Below, one piece after another: positions 38,367 to 45,452 of a stretch of DNA of 45,452 nt (position 1 is its first letter; each line of letters begins with the position of its first letter). The translations under genes and the position numbers were made by a program. The notes under the pieces were generated by a model that did not search any database, was not told where the DNA came from, and saw nothing but the letters and a program-made list of their open reading frames with translations. The DNA comes from Fibrobacterota bacterium (GTDB taxonomy: Bacteria; Fibrobacterota; Fibrobacteria; UBA11236): the NCBI GenBank assembly GCA_028287505.1, contig JAQBPN010000057.1, forward strand, positions 1 to 45,452, read 5' to 3'.

Positions 38367-38420
38367 GCGCAACAACTAGTTCTAGGGTGAATAAAAGTTT
38401 CACCCTAGAACTAGTTGGGC
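38367..38420 (+). repeat. Short attC-like site with perfect 19-base-pair stem
   Basis: CAACTAGTTCTAGGGTGAA (38373-38391) is perfectly complementary to 38399-38417 around the 7-base loop TAAAAGT. It is bordered by GCGCAAC (38367-38373) and GTTGGGC (38414-38420), the latter an exact GTTRRRY core. At 54 bases it is the size of a classical attC site, unlike the other four sites here. Confidence 0.65.
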
Positions 38421-38441: not shown

Positions 38442-38470
38442 TGCTCGCTGATCTTTTCAGTCAGCGAGCA
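38442..38470 (+). ncRNA. Leader hairpin of cassette A
   Basis: TGCTCGCTGA (38442-38451) pairs perfectly with TCAGCGAGCA (38461-38470) around the loop TCTTTTCAG. Equivalent hairpins with a different stem but nearly the same loop stand at the same place in cassettes B, C and D. It may act as RNA in the 5' leader or as single-stranded DNA. Confidence 0.6.
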
Positions 38471-38593: not shown

Positions 38594-39634
38594 ATGGAAA
38601 CCTTTGAAAATACCTGGGAAATAAAAGGTGACAGCCCTGCCGTAGATTTTGCCTTTGCAGTTACAAAGGAAATCGCGGATATGGCTAGGAAACAGCTTCC
38701 CGAATTTGCCGAAATGTTTCCTTTTCGAAGACAATGGGAGGCAAATGCAACATTTTCCAATGGCTGTACTGCAATTTTGCTTCGTGAGACTACTGGAAAT
38801 GGTGTCCCTTCAATTGGCGAGATAAAAGAAACCGACTTATTGAACAAAATCCAAGAATTCTCAAGAGGAAAAGAGCACCCGTCATTCGAAGAAATTTACA
38901 GCTTCTTTGGAAGCTACTATTTCAATTTTGATCAATTCCTATACATCGGAAAATATGACAATTCAAAACTAAGCTGGCGCCACATATTAACTGTCTTAGT
39001 AGAATGGATAAATAGAATTGTGGTTCCGGTCGTTTTGAAAAACAATGAAAAAAGGGTTCTAAGCGCAATTCCTATCCCTCCACAATTTGAAGTCGGCAAG
39101 CTAACCCCAAATGTTTTTGTGCTAGAAAGTGAAAAACACTCGAGGCAGGGCACATGCTTTCATCTTGCGGGCATCGGTCTTGTAACTTGCGAACACGCTT
39201 TTTGTGAAGAAATGAGTGTTTTTCGGAGTAGTAGCATTAACAATAAAGTGAAAACACATCTCGTTAAAAGCAACGCGACCATCGATTTAGCAATCTTGAA
39301 AGCGGACGGCTTCGAGTTAGGTACTGGACTTGAAATCGGTTCCTCCGATAACTTGAAAATAATGGATCATATTGCCTCGATTGGATTTCCGAATTATCGA
39401 TATGGAGATACGGGTGTCTTTTCTCCGGGATTAGTAGTTGGTTTTAGACCAGTGTCAGGGATTAGAAGAATCCTAGTCAATACGCCATTAATTTCCGGCA
39501 ATAGTGGTGGGCCAGTGGTTGACAGATTCGGAAAAGTCATTGGAGTAGTTGTCACCGGAGCGGACCGAATGGAAAATGCAAATGGAACTGAAAATCATGG
39601 GGTTATCCCAATTGAAGCCCTAAAACTATTGTAA
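38594..39634 (+). CDS. Trypsin-like serine protease with N-terminal extension
   Basis: 346 residues; TAAGGA 5 bases before the ATG. Residues about 180-340 form a chymotrypsin-like domain: GTCFHLAGIGLVTCEHAF with His201, IDLAILK with Asp231, and LISGNSGGPVVD with Ser304, so the triad is complete. Residues 1-175 are a helical region of unknown family with WEANATFSNGCTAILLRE. There is no signal peptide, so it acts in the cytoplasm, which is typical of proteases in anti-phage systems, not of digestive ones. Low GC and the cassette borders suggest recent transfer. The target or trigger is unknown. Confidence 0.85.
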   Translation: METFENTWEIKGDSPAVDFAFAVTKEIADMARKQLPEFAEMFPFRRQWEANATFSNGCTAILLRETTGNGVPSIGEIKETDLLNKIQEFSRGKEHPSFEEIYSFFGSYYFNFDQFLYIGKYDNSKLSWRHILTVLVEWINRIVVPVVLKNNEKRVLSAIPIPPQFEVGKLTPNVFVLESEKHSRQGTCFHLAGIGLVTCEHAFCEEMSVFRSSSINNKVKTHLVKSNATIDLAILKADGFELGTGLEIGSSDNLKIMDHIASIGFPNYRYGDTGVFSPGLVVGFRPVSGIRRILVNTPLISGNSGGPVVDRFGKVIGVVVTGADRMENANGTENHGVIPIEALKLL

Positions 39635-39682
39635 TCAAGAAATAAATGCCACCCCCAGTAAATACGGAACGGCATAACGATC

Positions 39683-39960
39683 GCTCAACAAGGACCCAGC
39701 CAGGAACCCGCGGGCATGCGTTCGCATTGCGGGTTTGCAAATGGCCTGGGAAGGCTGCGCGGCAATTCGCACTCAACTTCGAGCTGGTGCTTACGCGTTC
39801 CTCCTCCCATTCGGTCGTCGTCAGCGTTAGCTGGCTCTCAGTTGGTGCTCATTGCATGCTGCGCGCGTGAACTACAGGGGCTATAGCGCCCCACTCCGTT
39901 CACGTGCTCGCATGTCGCGCGTGCCTTCCTAGGCCACTTCTGGCTGGGCCAACGTTATGT
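39683..39960 (+). repeat. Large attC-like site 1
   Basis: Cores GCTCAAC (39683-39689) and GTTATGT (39954-39960). Outer stem CCCAGCCAG (39695-39703) with CTGGCTGGG (39940-39948). Main stem AAATGGCCTGGGAAGGC (39739-39755) with GCCTTCCTAGGCCACTT (39923-39939), 15 of 17 plus one G-T pair. Central GGGGCTATAGCGCCCC hairpin inside a GTGAAC/GTTCAC stem. Fills the gap between cassette A and B genes. Confidence 0.75.
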
Positions 39961-39981
39961 GCAATAACCCGTCCTTCAATG

Positions 39982-40012
39982 TTGGCCCCCGATCTTTCCA
40001 GTCGGGGGCCAA
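39982..40012 (+). ncRNA. Leader hairpin of cassette B
   Basis: TTGGCCCCCGA (39982-39992) pairs perfectly with TCGGGGGCCAA (40002-40012) around the loop TCTTTCCAG, the same loop as in cassette D. Confidence 0.65.
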
Positions 40013-40047
40013 TTTAGAATGATTAGATTTTGGGGGCAGGAGTGGAA

Positions 40048-40107
40048 ATGAGGATTGTCTCTCGAATACTAAAACTTAAGCGCCAAAATAAAATGGAGGG
40101 AATATAA
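40048..40107 (+). CDS. Putative 19-residue leader peptide
   Basis: An ATG at 40048 with GCAGGAG 5 bases before it opens a 19-residue frame, MRIVSRILKLKRQNKMEGI, whose TAA overlaps the ATG of the next gene as TAATG. This arrangement suggests translational coupling. The peptide is basic and could be a leader or simply an entry site for ribosomes. Too short to judge by composition alone. Confidence 0.4.
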   Translation: MRIVSRILKLKRQNKMEGI

Positions 40108-40328
40108 TGAGCAAATCGACTGTTGACCTTTGTTCAATTATGAGGGCTGGAGGTGGGGTTAAATTGCCCTGTAATAGATCTGCTGTAGACTTTAGCTCGA
40201 TAGCTCGTGCCGGTGGTGACAGTGGTGCCAAACTTACAATTACGGGCGCTGAAGCACTTTCAACGGTGGACCTCTGCTCTATTGGAAGGGCAAATCCAGG
40301 AAACGTGTTTTTTGAATTTTCAAGTTAG
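40107..40328 (+). CDS. Small protein of three imperfect repeats
   Basis: 73 residues. GGAGGG lies 7 bases before ATG 40107, and the TAATG overlap with the peptide ORF suggests coupling. The protein is almost wholly three repeats: STVDLCSIMRAGGG, SAVDFSSIARAGGD and STVDLCSIGRANPG, followed by short Lys/Thr-rich or Phe-rich tails. The repeat core is S-x-VD-x-x-SI-x-RA. There is no membrane segment or signal. No family is recognised. It stands in front of the RNase H-like gene, separated by the hairpin at 40329-40358, so it could be a regulator or partner of that enzyme. Confidence 0.6.
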   Translation: MSKSTVDLCSIMRAGGGVKLPCNRSAVDFSSIARAGGDSGAKLTITGAEALSTVDLCSIGRANPGNVFFEFSS

Positions 40329-40358
40329 GATAAGATGTCTGGAATAGACACCCTTATC
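40329..40358 (+). terminator. Hairpin between the two genes of cassette B
   Basis: GATAAG (40329-40334) pairs with CTTATC (40353-40358), and GTCT with AGAC within it, starting right after the TAG of the repeat protein. No U run follows. It may set the ratio of the two proteins by attenuation or by blocking ribosomes. Confidence 0.45.
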
Positions 40359-40377
40359 AGGAAAACCCGTTTGTAAA

Positions 40378-41265
40378 ATGGATAATCCATACGCTATCTA
40401 TGTCAACTGCGATGGTGCAATGGACTATCAAAAAGGGAATCCTGGCGGAGTAGGATTCTTCGTCAGATTTCCAGAATCTGTTGCCCTTGAACCAATAGGT
40501 ATCTCGGTTGGTACCTATTTGCATGGCAATATTGAAAGATTGGAAATCGAAGCCCTTATTCAGGCTATGAAAAAAACAAAAGACATTTTTTTCGAGCATT
40601 TGGAAATGCTGAAAAATGTAAACACAATAATATTCATAACAGATAGACTTGGCCTAAGCGACAAGGCAAAGACCTCTCCCTATAAAATCAAAGAATGGAA
40701 GTCTAACGGCTGGAAAAACCACGAAGACAAACCTATCAAGAATCATAAATTACTGGGAGAGTTGGATCGAGAAAGAAGAAAACTGGCTTCGGCAACCAAG
40801 TCGCAGGTCCGAATCGAATGGAGAAGACGAAAGTTCAACAAAAAGGCTGACAAACTTGCCAAGGCTGGGAAAGGCGCTGGCACACAAAAGTTTAAGCTGT
40901 GGAATGCTGGTGAAAAGATTGGAAGAAGAAAACTCGAAGGCGATGAAGTCAATTATCGCCTCATCCTTCCGAACGATGAATATCACGTAAATATATTTCG
41001 GAAAGATCCGGTCCAGGACAAGTGGGAAGTTTGGGCCGAAATATGTAGCGGAGATTCTCAGGGACAAAAACTGAAAATCTACGCGGAAGATATTTTGGCC
41101 AAAGAATTAAACCGTGGTAATGAGTTCAAGATCAGAATCAAAAACGTATTTAATTTCCACGTGGAAATATTTGGAAGCCTTCAGAAAAAAAGGAAGGTAG
41201 TTAAGGAATCCAATTCAAAAAAGAAATCAAAAGAAGAAAAAGATGCCCCCCAAAACAGCGAATAA
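40378..41265 (+). CDS. RNase H-like domain protein with basic C-terminus
   Basis: 295 residues. The N-terminal about 165 residues match the RNase HI fold: YVNCDGA with Asp12, ERLEIEALIQAM with Glu56, IIFITDR with Asp89 and NKKADKLAKAG with Asp158, so all four acidic catalytic residues are present. Residues about 190-265 form a second, strand-rich domain of unknown family (YRLILPNDEYHVNIFRKDP). The C-terminal tail is Lys-rich. Such an enzyme would cut RNA in RNA-DNA hybrids. The ribosome-binding site is poor and the start lies just after a hairpin, suggesting low or regulated translation. The last codons overlap the inner C-rich repeat and the cassette-end repeat. Confidence 0.75.
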   Translation: MDNPYAIYVNCDGAMDYQKGNPGGVGFFVRFPESVALEPIGISVGTYLHGNIERLEIEALIQAMKKTKDIFFEHLEMLKNVNTIIFITDRLGLSDKAKTSPYKIKEWKSNGWKNHEDKPIKNHKLLGELDRERRKLASATKSQVRIEWRRRKFNKKADKLAKAGKGAGTQKFKLWNAGEKIGRRKLEGDEVNYRLILPNDEYHVNIFRKDPVQDKWEVWAEICSGDSQGQKLKIYAEDILAKELNRGNEFKIRIKNVFNFHVEIFGSLQKKRKVVKESNSKKKSKEEKDAPQNSE

Positions 41266-41279
41266 GGACGGGTTACAGC

Positions 41280-41559
41280 ACATAACACGCGCCAGTAGGA
41301 AAACCCCCGGGCATGCTCCGCATTGGGGTTTCGCAAATGGGCTGCGAGACCTACCCGGCAATTCAGATTGGGTTTCGGATTGCGCTTATGTGTTTCTCTC
41401 TCCCCATTCGGGTCGAGAGAAAACCTTAGCTTGCCTCAACCCATCTTCATTGCGCGCTGCGGGTGCTCATTTCGGGGGCGGTAGCGCCCCACTTCATTCG
41501 CATCCTCGCGCAACGGGTATGATCTCGCAGCCCACTTTCTACTGGCGCAAACGTTGGGT
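41280..41559 (+). repeat. Large attC-like site 2
   Basis: Cores ACATAAC (41280-41286) and GTTGGGT (41553-41559). Outer stem GCGCCAGTAG (41289-41298) with CTACTGGCGC (41539-41548), 10 of 10. Main stem AAATGGGCTGCGAGA (41335-41349) with TCTCGCAGCCCACTT (41523-41537), 14 of 15. Central GGTAGCGCCCC hairpin. Fills the gap between genes. Confidence 0.75.
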
Positions 41560-41578
41560 GCAATTTTGGCTCTTTATG

Positions 41579-41608
41579 TTGGCCCCTGATCTTCCAGGCA
41601 TGGGCCAA
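41579..41608 (+). ncRNA. Leader hairpin of cassette C
   Basis: TTGGCCC (41579-41585) pairs with GGGCCAA (41602-41608), then a mismatch and TG/CA, with a shortened loop TCTTCCAG. The least perfect of the four hairpins. Confidence 0.5.
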
Positions 41609-41656
41609 TTACAAAATGACTAATTTGGAGGGGCTAAGAGAAGGAGTAAGGCCCAA

Positions 41657-42415
41657 ATGGGACGGAAAACTGACAAAGAATACTTGCTTGAATTGCTGCC
41701 TCAAGATGGCACGGCCATGGGCAATTCCAATCTGAAAAAGACTTTAGGGTGGAACGAAGACAAATATTGGGATGTTCGAAACAACCTTCTGGAAGAAGGT
41801 TTAGTTTCTCTTGGCCGTGGAAAAGGCGGATCCATCTTCAAAGTGTTAACCGAAGAGAAGACCCCAAAAATTGTCTCGGTCTATCAAAGTGAGAAAAGCC
41901 TATACCAGCCATTTGCGGAAGCTATTGCAAAGGGGTATACGAAAGACAAGGATATAAAAACTTTCATTATTCAGGAAACTGCGAATCAAGGCAAGAAGCT
42001 TACTGGCGGAAGGTGGACTCGGCCAGATGTAGTAATGATTTCTATGAATACCTACTCCTTTGTGCCCGGCAAGTATCTAGATGTAATAACTTTTGAAATA
42101 AAGCCATCTACGGATTTCCAAATTACAGGCGTTTTTGAAACTGCGGCCCATTCAAGATTTGCCACCAAGAGCTATCTATGCGTGCACTTGCCTGAAGATT
42201 GGGATGACACAAATCCCGAATATGAAAGGATCAAGGCCGAGTGTGGAAGATTCGGAGTCGGTCTTATGTATTTCACTAATCCGGCCGACTACGATACCTA
42301 TGAAATCTTGGTCGAACCCAAAAGATGGAACCCCGATCCGGCAGATACCGATTCATTTATTTCGGTTCAAATAGGTGATAAGGAAAAAAAGAAAATCCTG
42401 GAATGGTCCCGCTAA
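41657..42415 (+). CDS. Winged-helix / PD-(D/E)XK nuclease-like protein
   Basis: 252 residues; TAAGG and GAAGGAG stand before ATG 41657. Residues about 20-65 look like a winged helix (NLKKTLGWNEDKYWDVRNNLLEEGLVSLGRGKGGSIFKV). Residues about 115-220 contain the PD-(D/E)XK-like arrangement: RPDVVMIS with Asp124, then 23 residues later ITFEIKP with Glu147 and Lys149, followed by a helix HSRFATKSYL. The signature is compact and complete, so a DNA-cutting or DNA-binding role is likely, though I cannot name the family. It is the only gene of its cassette, so a single-gene defence or toxin role is an inference. Confidence 0.75.
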   Translation: MGRKTDKEYLLELLPQDGTAMGNSNLKKTLGWNEDKYWDVRNNLLEEGLVSLGRGKGGSIFKVLTEEKTPKIVSVYQSEKSLYQPFAEAIAKGYTKDKDIKTFIIQETANQGKKLTGGRWTRPDVVMISMNTYSFVPGKYLDVITFEIKPSTDFQITGVFETAAHSRFATKSYLCVHLPEDWDDTNPEYERIKAECGRFGVGLMYFTNPADYDTYEILVEPKRWNPDPADTDSFISVQIGDKEKKKILEWSR

Positions 42416-42467
42416 GATTACTGTAAACAAGAACAAGAGCCCCTCCAAAACGTAGAGCCAAAACTAC

Positions 42468-42746
42468 ACTCAACACGCGCCATGGGGGGAGCCCGCGGGC
42501 ATGCGTTCGCATTGCGGGCTCGCAAATGGCTTGGGAAGGGTGCGCGGCAATTCGCACAGCGCTTCGGGCTGGCGCTTACGCGTCGCCGCCTCCCATTTGG
42601 TCGTCAGCGAGCGTTAGCTGGCCCTCAGCGGTGTTCATTGCACGCTGCGGGCGTTGGCAACGGGGCTGTAGCGCCCCACTTTGCCAACGTCCTCGCGTGT
42701 CGCGCATCCCTTCCCAGGCCACTTCGCCATGACGCAAACGTTGGGT
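42468..42746 (+). repeat. Large attC-like site 3
   Basis: Cores ACTCAAC (42468-42474, exact RYYYAAC) and GTTGGGT (42740-42746, exact GTTRRRY). Outer stem GCGCCATGG (42477-42485) with CCATGACGC (42727-42735), 8 of 9. Main stem AAATGGCTTGGGAAGGG (42524-42540) with CCCTTCCCAGGCCACTT (42708-42724), 15 of 17. A GAGCCCGC hairpin and a GGGGCTGTAGCGCCCC hairpin within a GTTGGCAA stem lie inside. Confidence 0.78.
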
Positions 42747-42764
42747 GAAATTTTGGCCATTCAG

Positions 42765-42795
42765 CTTGTACCTGATCTTTCCAGTCAGGTACAAG
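42765..42795 (+). ncRNA. Leader hairpin of cassette D
   Basis: CTTGTACCTGA (42765-42775) pairs perfectly with TCAGGTACAAG (42785-42795) around the loop TCTTTCCAG. The stem shares no sequence with that of cassette B apart from the last bases by the loop. Confidence 0.65.
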
Positions 42796-42848
42796 TAAAA
42801 ATGATTAATTTTCTGGGGGCAAGAGAAGACAATTACTCGGAGGTTTTC

Positions 42849-44870
42849 TTGGCTCAAAAGATCCAGATCGGAACAAAAGGCGTAAAAAAGGCGCTCAATA
42901 GTTTTAATTGCCAAGAGGCCATAGCTGAGTTCATCTGGAACGGATTTGATGCGCGCGCAACGATTGTAGAAGTCTCCTTTGTTGAAAACTTATTCAATGG
43001 TTTAGAATCGATTACAGTTCGAGACAACGGGGATGGAATTCCAAAAAGTGAACTTCGAGTCAAGTTCAAACCATTTTTAGAGTCAGCTAAAAGATTCGCA
43101 CTTAAAGCGGATGAGCACTCCTCAATTGCTCGAGGCAAAAACGGAGTTGGGAGGCTGACATTTTTTAAATTTGCATCGAGCGCAGTCTGGTCAACGACAT
43201 ACCAGAAAAATGAAAAACATTACAACTACAAAATTATGGTAAGTGCTGAATCGATTCAGGAATACACTGAATCCGAAGAAGTCGAAACGACAGAGCCATG
43301 CGGCACATTAGTTCGGTTCTTAGGAGTAAAGGAAGATCTGTTTCGAGGCCCGAACGAAGGAAAGCTTCTAGAACATTTGTCCAAGGAGTTTTGTTGGTAT
43401 CTTGAATTATCAAAGTCAAACAACAAAACAATCATTGTTAATGACAACAAAATTACCTATGACCACTTGGTATTGCAGCGCGAGACCCAAAACTTTTTTC
43501 ACCCCGAAAGCAAAACTGATTTTCAGGTCGATTTTATTCTATGGGACAAGAATCTCGACACTGAATATTCAAAGATTTACTATCAAGATTTTGAGGGCGT
43601 AGAAAAGTACAAGGAAAACACCACACTAAACCATCAAGGTGACCGATTTTTCCATAGCATCTACGTAAGAAGCTCCTTTTTCAATTCCTTTAGCTTTAAA
43701 AAATCCGATGCCCCACAAGAGGATCTTCTTTCCGGGAATCGCTCCTCGAACGCGTTTAAGTATTTAAAAGATGAGCTGTTAAAATTTTTAAAACTGAAGC
43801 GAAAGGGTCTGCTTCGAGAATTTGCGGACAAGCTAGTGGCATCATACGAGGTGGACGGAGTTTTTCCATCATTTGGAAACAATTCTTGGGATGGTTATCG
43901 AAAAGCCGAACTAGAGGAATTAATTCGGGGGCTATATGAAGCGCAGCCTAAAATATTCAATGGTCTTAAAATCGAGCAGAAAAAAACATTTGTGAGAATA
44001 TTGAACCTCCTGCTTGATTCAAATGAGCGAGATAACTTATTCGATATTCTCGAAGGTGTCGTTGAGCTTGATCCCGAAGAAAGGCAGGAGATTTCCTCGA
44101 TTCTTAAGGTCACAACCTTGTCCAGAATTACTCAGACAATCGGATTAATTGCTGAGAGGGAGCGAGTAATACACGAACTTAAACAATTGGTTTGGAATGA
44201 AGACATTGGCGCAAACGAAATCGACCATCTTCAATCAGCAATAGAACATCACTATTGGGTTTTTGGTGAAGAGTACAATTTAGTTTCGGCGGCAGAACCA
44301 GATTTTGAAGAGGCACTTCGCAGGTACCTATTTTTGCTCAAGGGAGAAAAAGAGGCAGTAAAAATTGCTCACCCTGGAAAAAACAAAGAGATGGATATTT
44401 TCGCTTGCCGTCAAATTCACCACTCAAAGTCTATTGAAAATATCGTTGTTGAGCTAAAGCATCCCAACATCTTATTGGGGGAAAAGGAAGTCGGGCAAGT
44501 TAAAGGATATATGAGCACGATTCTTTCTGAACAGAGATTCAATGGCTCAAATATGTCCTGGAAATTTTACTTAGTCGGCAACCGCTTCAATACAAGCAAT
44601 TTTATTGAAGGCGAACTTGAAAATGCGAAGAGCCACGGCGAGCCGTCGCTTATTTACAAATCGGGTAAGCTCAAGTTTTATGTAAAAACCTGGAGCGAGG
44701 TTTTTGCTGATTTAGAAATTCGGTTTAACTACTTGAATAAGAAATTATTAATTGAAAGAGAGCGACTTAGTTCAGCAGGGAGGTCCGCTAACGAAATTGT
44801 TGAAGACCTTTCTCGAAGCTCGGCTTCGCAACCAGGTGAAACTATTCCAGTAAAAGAAGCTGCGTATTAG
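42849..44870 (+). CDS. GHKL ATPase fused to Shedu/DUF4263-like nuclease domain
   Basis: 673 residues from TTG 42849, chosen because GGAGG lies 5 bases upstream; the ATG at 42801 falls inside the conserved leader motif AATGATTA found in other cassettes and is not a start. Residues 15-200 are a GHKL ATPase: Glu27 and Asn31 (EFIWNGFDA), VRDNGDGI (Asp59) and RGKNGVGR (96-102). Residues about 470-620 resemble Shedu/DUF4263: WVFGEEYNLVSAAEPDFEEALRRYL, DIFACR (Asp516) and NIVVELKHP (Glu535, Lys537). The middle is helical. In known defence proteins an ATPase-nuclease pair senses phage and cuts nucleic acid; here that is inference. It is the sole gene of the last cassette. Confidence 0.82.
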   Translation: MAQKIQIGTKGVKKALNSFNCQEAIAEFIWNGFDARATIVEVSFVENLFNGLESITVRDNGDGIPKSELRVKFKPFLESAKRFALKADEHSSIARGKNGVGRLTFFKFASSAVWSTTYQKNEKHYNYKIMVSAESIQEYTESEEVETTEPCGTLVRFLGVKEDLFRGPNEGKLLEHLSKEFCWYLELSKSNNKTIIVNDNKITYDHLVLQRETQNFFHPESKTDFQVDFILWDKNLDTEYSKIYYQDFEGVEKYKENTTLNHQGDRFFHSIYVRSSFFNSFSFKKSDAPQEDLLSGNRSSNAFKYLKDELLKFLKLKRKGLLREFADKLVASYEVDGVFPSFGNNSWDGYRKAELEELIRGLYEAQPKIFNGLKIEQKKTFVRILNLLLDSNERDNLFDILEGVVELDPEERQEISSILKVTTLSRITQTIGLIAERERVIHELKQLVWNEDIGANEIDHLQSAIEHHYWVFGEEYNLVSAAEPDFEEALRRYLFLLKGEKEAVKIAHPGKNKEMDIFACRQIHHSKSIENIVVELKHPNILLGEKEVGQVKGYMSTILSEQRFNGSNMSWKFYLVGNRFNTSNFIEGELENAKSHGEPSLIYKSGKLKFYVKTWSEVFADLEIRFNYLNKKLLIERERLSSAGRSANEIVEDLSRSSASQPGETIPVKEAAY

Positions 44871-44927
44871 CACGAACCTCGAATTCAAAACAAATACTGC
44901 CCCCAGAAAAAGATTAGCCAAAACTTC

Positions 44928-45184
44928 ACTCAACACGGCGCAGTGCGCTCCGCGCGGGATTCCATTCTCGCTCCAGGGCTTCGCCCAAATTGGTTTTGGG
45001 GCGTGCCCGGCAATTCAGACTGGGATTCGGCTGCGCTGACTTTCACTGATTTTTTCTCGTTCGGTCTACGTTAGCTTGCCTCAACCCGTCTTCATTGCTT
45101 GCTGCGGTCGGGAATTCCAGGGGCATAGGTCCCACTCCATTCCCGTCCTCGCAAATCGGGCAAGCCCCAAAACCAACGTCGCCC
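44928..45184 (+). repeat. Large attC-like site 4, cut by an insertion sequence
   Basis: Core ACTCAAC (44928-44934) is present; the right core is lost. The main stem TTGGTTTTGGGGCGTGCCCG (44990-45009) pairs with CGGGCAAGCCCCAAAACCAA (45157-45176), 19 of 20, the longest stem of all. GGGAAT/ATTCCC forms the apical stem. The sequence departs from the other copies at about 45185. Confidence 0.72.
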
Positions 45185-45452
45185 TGCTGGTCTTATCGGC
45201 CAATTTTCGAACCGGTTCAGGCTACAGATTTAAGGTTATAAAATTCATTCGGTGACTTCATCTCCAAAGCTGAATGCGGTGCAAAAGTATTGTAGTCATC
45301 GACCCACTCCTTGATCATTCTTCTGACCTCTTCTTCCGAGTCCAAACAATTCTGGTACACATAATCCCGCTTGAAGGTTCCATTAAAGGCCTCGCACATG
45401 CCATTGGATTGAGGCGAATACGTCGGGGTGTTGCAATTGATGATGTTCCAAT
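45185..45452 (-). mobile_element. IS3-family insertion sequence, one end only
   Basis: The element appears to start with TGCTGGTCTTATCGG at 45185, the TG terminus typical of IS3-family elements, and contains the end of an OrfB transposase on the minus strand. It runs off the window, so the other terminal repeat and any target duplication cannot be checked. Confidence 0.6.
45217..45452 (-). CDS. IS3-family transposase OrfB, C-terminal part
   Basis: The last 77 residues are in view; the N-terminus is beyond the window edge. YSPQSNGMCEAFNGTFKRDYVYQNCLDSEEEVRRMIKEWVDDYNTFAPHSALEMKSPNEFYNL is the typical end of the integrase-type DDE domain, with the third catalytic residue, the Glu of NGMCEAF, visible. 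It catalyses cut-and-copy insertion of its own element. The family usually makes OrfAB by frameshifting; the upstream orf is not visible. Its insertion has damaged the last attC-like site. Confidence 0.93.
   Translation of the reverse strand, partial: WNIINCNTPTYSPQSNGMCEAFNGTFKRDYVYQNCLDSEEEVRRMIKEWVDDYNTFAPHSALEMKSPNEFYNLKSVA

Follow-up and report, generated by a model that had tools for sequence, protein, structure and literature searches.

Gene content and layout of the cassette

Between 38.41 and 45.19 kb of the window, the 45,452-nt stretch of Fibrobacterota DNA analyzed here, non-homologous genes are separated by palindromic repeats of ~265 to 290 nt that align to one another. The second unit of this array carries a gene for a 73-residue three-repeat protein followed by an RNase H-like gene, and is closed by a long folding repeat resembling the attC site of integrons. 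The features of the array are as follows.

38372 to 38418, no strand assigned: attI-like palindrome with 19-bp arms at the array head, found at only three places in the genome
38415 to 39954, plus strand: cassette 1, with a trypsin-like protease ORF (38594 to 39634; PF13365) and its own attC
39678 to 39965, plus strand: attC-like site of cassette 1 (nhmmer E 3e-63; single-stranded DNA fold z -6.4)
39955 to 41553, plus strand: cassette 2, the subject of this analysis, with leader, mini-ORFs, 73-aa gene, RNase H-like ORF, and attC
40019 to 40051, plus strand: putative 10-aa frame MIRFWGQEWK, opening at the leader ATG and overlapping the 19-aa frame by ATGA
40048 to 40107, plus strand: 19-aa frame
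40107 to 40328, plus strand: 73-aa three-repeat alpha/beta protein, a relative of phrog_27431
40329 to 40358, plus strand: unremarkable intergenic hairpin
40378 to 41265, plus strand: RNase H1-like protein of 295 aa (domain at residues 7 to 164, a C-terminal part of ~130 aa without family, basic tail)
41275 to 41564, plus strand: attC-like site of cassette 2, 290 nt and branched (nhmmer E 8e-63; fold z -7.4 and -7.1 for the two strands)
41554 to 42740, plus strand: cassette 3, with a 252-aa ORF (41657 to 42415) of no family
42463 to 42751, plus strand: attC-like site of cassette 3 (nhmmer E 3e-60; fold z -8.7)
42741 to 45187, plus strand: cassette 4, with a MutL/HSP90-type ATPase ORF (likely start 42801, end 44870) and a 3'-truncated attC
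44923 to 45187, plus strand: attC-like site of cassette 4, R' end missing (nhmmer model positions 1 to 262 of 281)

The placement of the small gene and the enzyme in one cassette, as proposed in the original prediction, is strictly correct and well supported, both genes lying between two attC-like sites. The 19-residue frame that it had described is likewise present: the ORF at 40048 to 40107 (plus strand) encodes MRIVSRILKLKRQNKMEGI*, and its TAA overlaps the ATG of the 73-aa gene at 40107 (TAATG). Conservation of this frame was not found, as sister cassettes contain no counterpart and hold other short frames in their leaders. The peptide reads as a leader frame that may couple translation to the shared leader ATG; in cassette 4, this ATG probably serves to start the ATPase gene (42801). 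The predicted hairpin after the small gene (40329 to 40358) is real and not unusual (RNA fold z -1.0, with 32 of 200 shuffles equally stable), and it was dropped as a special element. The 49-nt gap between the stop codon of the 73-aa gene and the start of the RNase H-like ORF contains neither an attC nor a good ribosome site.

A different hairpin is found in the leader (39982 to 40012, plus strand), with a conserved, near-invariant loop GATCTTTCCAGTC and varying, compensating arms. Exact or near copies occur in the other leaders of the window (38442 to 38470, 41585 to 41610, and 42765 to 42795) as well as at G003:C82 and L083:5620-5654. It is followed by an A/T-GGGGGC box that is often mirrored near the cassette end. 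Specific pairing of leader and trailer inverted repeats within each cassette was unsupported, since other cassettes score equally because the leaders have a common sequence.

No second copy of the 73-aa or RNase H-like protein was observed elsewhere in the genome or genus, neither cargo protein was matched by PADLOC, and an Rfam scan returned no family at its gathering score. Among the neighboring cargo, the C-terminal part of the cassette 1 protease (38594 to 39634) matches PADLOC RT-Protease_XI over its protease half (E 1e-36), with no reverse transcriptase alongside, and the ATPase of cassette 4 matches phrog_6203 (E 7e-64), with a weak match to BbrUII/HgiDII. The last attC is truncated at its 3' side, where it adjoins an IS3-like transposase fragment (45217 to 45452, minus strand) at the contig end.

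A probable divergent RNase H with an additional C-terminal part

The downstream ORF matches PF00075 at 28.9 bits (cut-off, 25.8) and phrog_531 with an E value of 3e-14, its nearest relatives being phage families. The four catalytic acids that had been proposed are found as D12, E56, D89, and D158, corresponding to D10, E48, D70, and D134 of Escherichia coli RNase HI; alignment to the latter recovers D89 and D158, a longer alignment adds E56, and D12 sits in a CDGAM motif. These residues are shared with type 1 RNase H (RNase HI, PF00075), and the domain reaches residue 164. The cassette enzyme differs in scoring 36 bits against the NCBIfam model of RNase HI, whose cut-off is 160 bits, and in its extra C-terminal part of ~130 aa without family, for which a separate search returned no matches. 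Judged by its sequence, the protein is probably a divergent RNase H of type 1 that carries additional C-terminal sequence. Searches of phages and 200 related genomes yielded nothing useful, a plasmid search gave only weak N-terminal matches to RNase HI, and the single-sequence AF2 model was uninformative (pLDDT 36).

The three-repeat protein and its changing partners

The 73-aa protein had been described as made only of repeats. Three S-x-VD-[LF]-x-SI-x-RA copies are indeed present, each followed by a strand-forming segment, and together they cover 33 of the 73 residues, so the earlier description overstates their share. The AF2 model (pLDDT 94.9) displays three helix-strand (alpha-beta) units. 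A fold search against PDB and BFVD gave no confident match (best Foldseek E 0.05, best VIA Z 5.8), which is not evidence of a new fold. At the profile level, residues 4 to 69 align to positions 6 to 74 of 75 in phrog_27431 (E 1e-6), a whole-length match between proteins of similar size (73 to 75 aa). That family has no known function; here, its relative precedes an RNase H in a cassette.

The protein belongs to a real, thinly scattered family, with members in Phocaeicola, Bacteroides heparinolyticus, and Alloprevotella, on a Roseomonas plasmid, and on a human faecal phage-like contig, in addition to more distant ones. Weak matches in G216, G230, G233, G376, G440, and G566 were rejected as chance or LRR-like stretches inside long ORFs, and scans of viral contigs with either cargo protein or with alignments detected no relatives. 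The neighbors of the homologs vary. We observe a small KTSC-like ORF in two loci (L026 and L023; our own reading, with no Pfam match), a 91-aa ORF of unknown family in a third (L041), and a site-specific integrase on the Roseomonas plasmid.

The original prediction read the two genes as a small regulator or antitoxin with a nuclease of RNA-DNA hybrids. As a recurring pair, antitoxin plus hybrid nuclease is not supported: by tblastn, no RNase H lies near six of the small-protein homologs, and the seventh (G883) gave only chance-level matches of 11 to 15 residues. The original prediction had named such an outcome as refuting it, as it had a lack of conservation of the small frame, and in its specific form the pairing therefore fails. 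A weaker form of the proposal stands, in that the G883 homolog leads a cassette in front of an effector-type enzyme. No other gene separates this homolog (35% identity) from a canonical IntI (TIGR02249, 422 bits), and the two are transcribed divergently. It lies in the first cassette, where a CAP12/Pycsar-type TIR protein (PF10137, E 5e-35) and then an Mrr-type nuclease come behind it with no attC in between; an attC-like palindrome, read by eye, closes the cassette. The locus as a whole (L102:1000-7150) is a canonical integron whose first cassette joins the three-repeat protein, the CAP12-type TIR protein, and the Mrr nuclease. As in the window, the small three-repeat protein opens an integron cassette of several genes, but the G883 enzymes are a TIR-domain protein and an Mrr nuclease rather than an RNase H. 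Together, the two cassettes suggest a possible modular unit of a small lead protein and an exchangeable effector.

Two other explanations of the gene pair bear on these observations. In a toxin-antitoxin arrangement, the RNase H-like enzyme would be toxic and neutralized by the 73-aa protein (or the 19-mer), making this an addiction cassette. The layout would suit such a role, with the small gene upstream and the enzyme downstream on the same strand of one cassette, and so would the homolog preceding a TIR effector in another integron; toxin-antitoxin cassettes that stabilize large arrays are known. However, the gene pair does not recur, the homologs are solitary or stand beside unrelated small ORFs in Bacteroidota and on the Roseomonas plasmid, and RNase H1 enzymes are normally housekeeping rather than toxic, which leaves an addiction cassette quite unlikely. 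Alternatively, two unrelated genes may have been fused into one cassette by chance, for example by loss of an intervening attC, with the RNase H an accessory enzyme derived from a phage or plasmid and the small protein an unrelated passenger. The gap that lacks both attC and a good ribosome site, the partners of the small protein that differ everywhere, and the phage families (phrog_531) nearest to the RNase H are all consistent with such a fusion. That the small protein leads a multi-gene cassette ahead of an enzyme in two independent integrons argues against it, and we regard chance cargo as somewhat unlikely.

attC-like sites and the footprint of insertion

The repeats of the window fold far better than shuffled sequence (z -6.4 to -8.7). 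As single-stranded DNA, they form R''/R' and L''/L' arms, with the first box ending in AAC and the last starting with GTT. Using a profile built from four of these repeats, we count 17 sites in the genome, a draft in which arrays break at contig ends: 4 in the window, 10 on contig C85, 2 on C81, and 1 on C46. Their lengths range from ~225 to 304 nt, mostly 255 to 304. Each of the six genomes of the genus contains such repeats; among 95 other genomes, the only hit was one marginal 29-base match.

These arrays resemble sedentary chromosomal integrons (IntI, attI, attC) in their mostly single-orientation cassettes with a folding site after each gene, in the R''/R' relation of G^TT exchange, and in the presence of canonical IntI in the genus. 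They differ in sites that are branched and mostly 255 to 304 nt long, against published attC sizes of 57 to 141 bp (PMC3053210), and some R' cores deviate from GTTRRRY (GTTATGT, GTTGTGT, and GTTGCGC). Because site length and cores fall outside these typical values, we class the system as a variant rather than an ordinary integron. Two further differences are described below: the arrays begin at a long palindrome, and the recombinase beside them, which points in the same direction as the cassettes, has no IntI-specific domain.

The same palindromic character, the length beyond the cited range, and the IS element flanking the array here would also fit BIME- or MITE-like palindromes between ordinary chromosomal genes, without any integron. 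Against this stands, first, the relation between R boxes. If cassettes insert as circles cut between G and TT, the expected partner of R'' is the R' that opens its own cassette rather than the one now closing its site. R'' indeed matches the same-cassette R' at 5.44 of 7 positions and the R' of its own attC at 3.56 of 7 (Wilcoxon p 0.005, permutation p 5e-5). Cassette 2 begins with the R' of the cassette 1 attC, GTTATGTGCAAT (39954 to 39965); its R' GTTATGTGC at 39954 matches the R'' GCACATAAC ending at 41286, the R' of its own site is GTTGGGTGC, and its cut point would fall between G and TT. From the sequences, we read this matching as the footprint of G^TT insertion. Second, site orientation is uniform within arrays, with different genes between the sites. 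The array heads and recombinases add to these points.

Array heads and recombinases

The palindrome TTCTAGGGTGA-N-TCACCCTAGAACTAG is found at three sites in 6.07 Mb, all of them array heads: 38372 to 38418 in the window, C81:1422 (L036:1422-1456), and C85:45160 (L034:5161-5195). A control pattern gave no matches. A recombinase is present at only one of these heads, on C85, where the palindrome lies directly behind a tyrosine recombinase gene; the window contains none beside its own array. The ten-site array directly behind this recombinase (G000:C85:43995-66900; L034 and L035) is filled with cassette genes of which most of those checked lack a Pfam match.

This recombinase and its relatives lie directly upstream of attC-like sites, and co-directional with them, in four genomes (G000:C85, G002:C53, G003:C82, and G005:C127, the last with an interrupted reading). 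In the alignment, the C85 recombinase lacks patch III, missing exactly the segment LERK..P..WPWQWVFP of the canonical IntI of the same genus. This IntI-specific domain has been described as necessary for integron recombination (PMC9668308). Canonical IntI is encoded in four of the six genomes of the genus, including this one (C53:3225-4154; 381 bits, cut-off 265), and G001:C17 is the one case in which it adjoins a giant attC, at a distance of 1.4 kb. At a contig end upstream of the canonical IntI, the minus strand encodes ParE/RelE-like and Phd-like proteins (L033:68-642), as would be expected of a cassette array, but no long attC was found there.

With an identical attI-like palindrome confined to array heads and a recombinase adjoining arrays in four genomes, palindromes scattered between ordinary chromosomal genes are a highly improbable, already disfavored explanation of the locus.

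Proposed mechanism and implications

The integron-type array is the preferred reading: the feature at 39955 to 41553 is probably one mobile cassette in such an array, carrying the cargo described here. The sequence itself shows the cassette boundaries, the attC-like repeats, the attI-like palindrome, the recombinase, the catalytic residues of the RNase H, and the family of the small protein. The cassette would move by action of a tyrosine recombinase on the long folded attC-like site at 41275 to 41564, and would have entered the array through a G^TT cut next to either the attI-like palindrome or the site before it. Its 73-residue protein would be read after the conserved leader through the overlapping mini-frames, followed by the co-directional RNase H-like gene. 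The array may still move, and the mini-frames may couple translation.

As for function, the small protein would sense, restrain, or scaffold the enzyme, which would in turn act on invading elements by cleaving the RNA in their RNA-DNA hybrids. The neighboring cassettes hold protease and MutL-like ATPase genes, kinds seen in defense. A role of the cargo as a conflict or defense unit is a tentative suggestion. The cassette makes a compact test case, since its small protein belongs to a family without known function that heads a multi-gene cassette before an enzyme in two unrelated integrons.

The array platform is the most surprising and more novel part of the locus. It raises the idea, rather unlikely at present, of a second kind of integron, with branched attC sites of ~290 nt, a palindromic attI, a tyrosine recombinase without the IntI-specific domain, and modular cassettes of two parts, where a single type of small three-repeat protein would stand before exchangeable effector enzymes. 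Common integron finders limit attC length to near 200 bp; if the idea is true, size-limited searches would miss whole arrays, and sites of twice the length, a palindromic start, and a domain-less recombinase would widen what counts as an integron.
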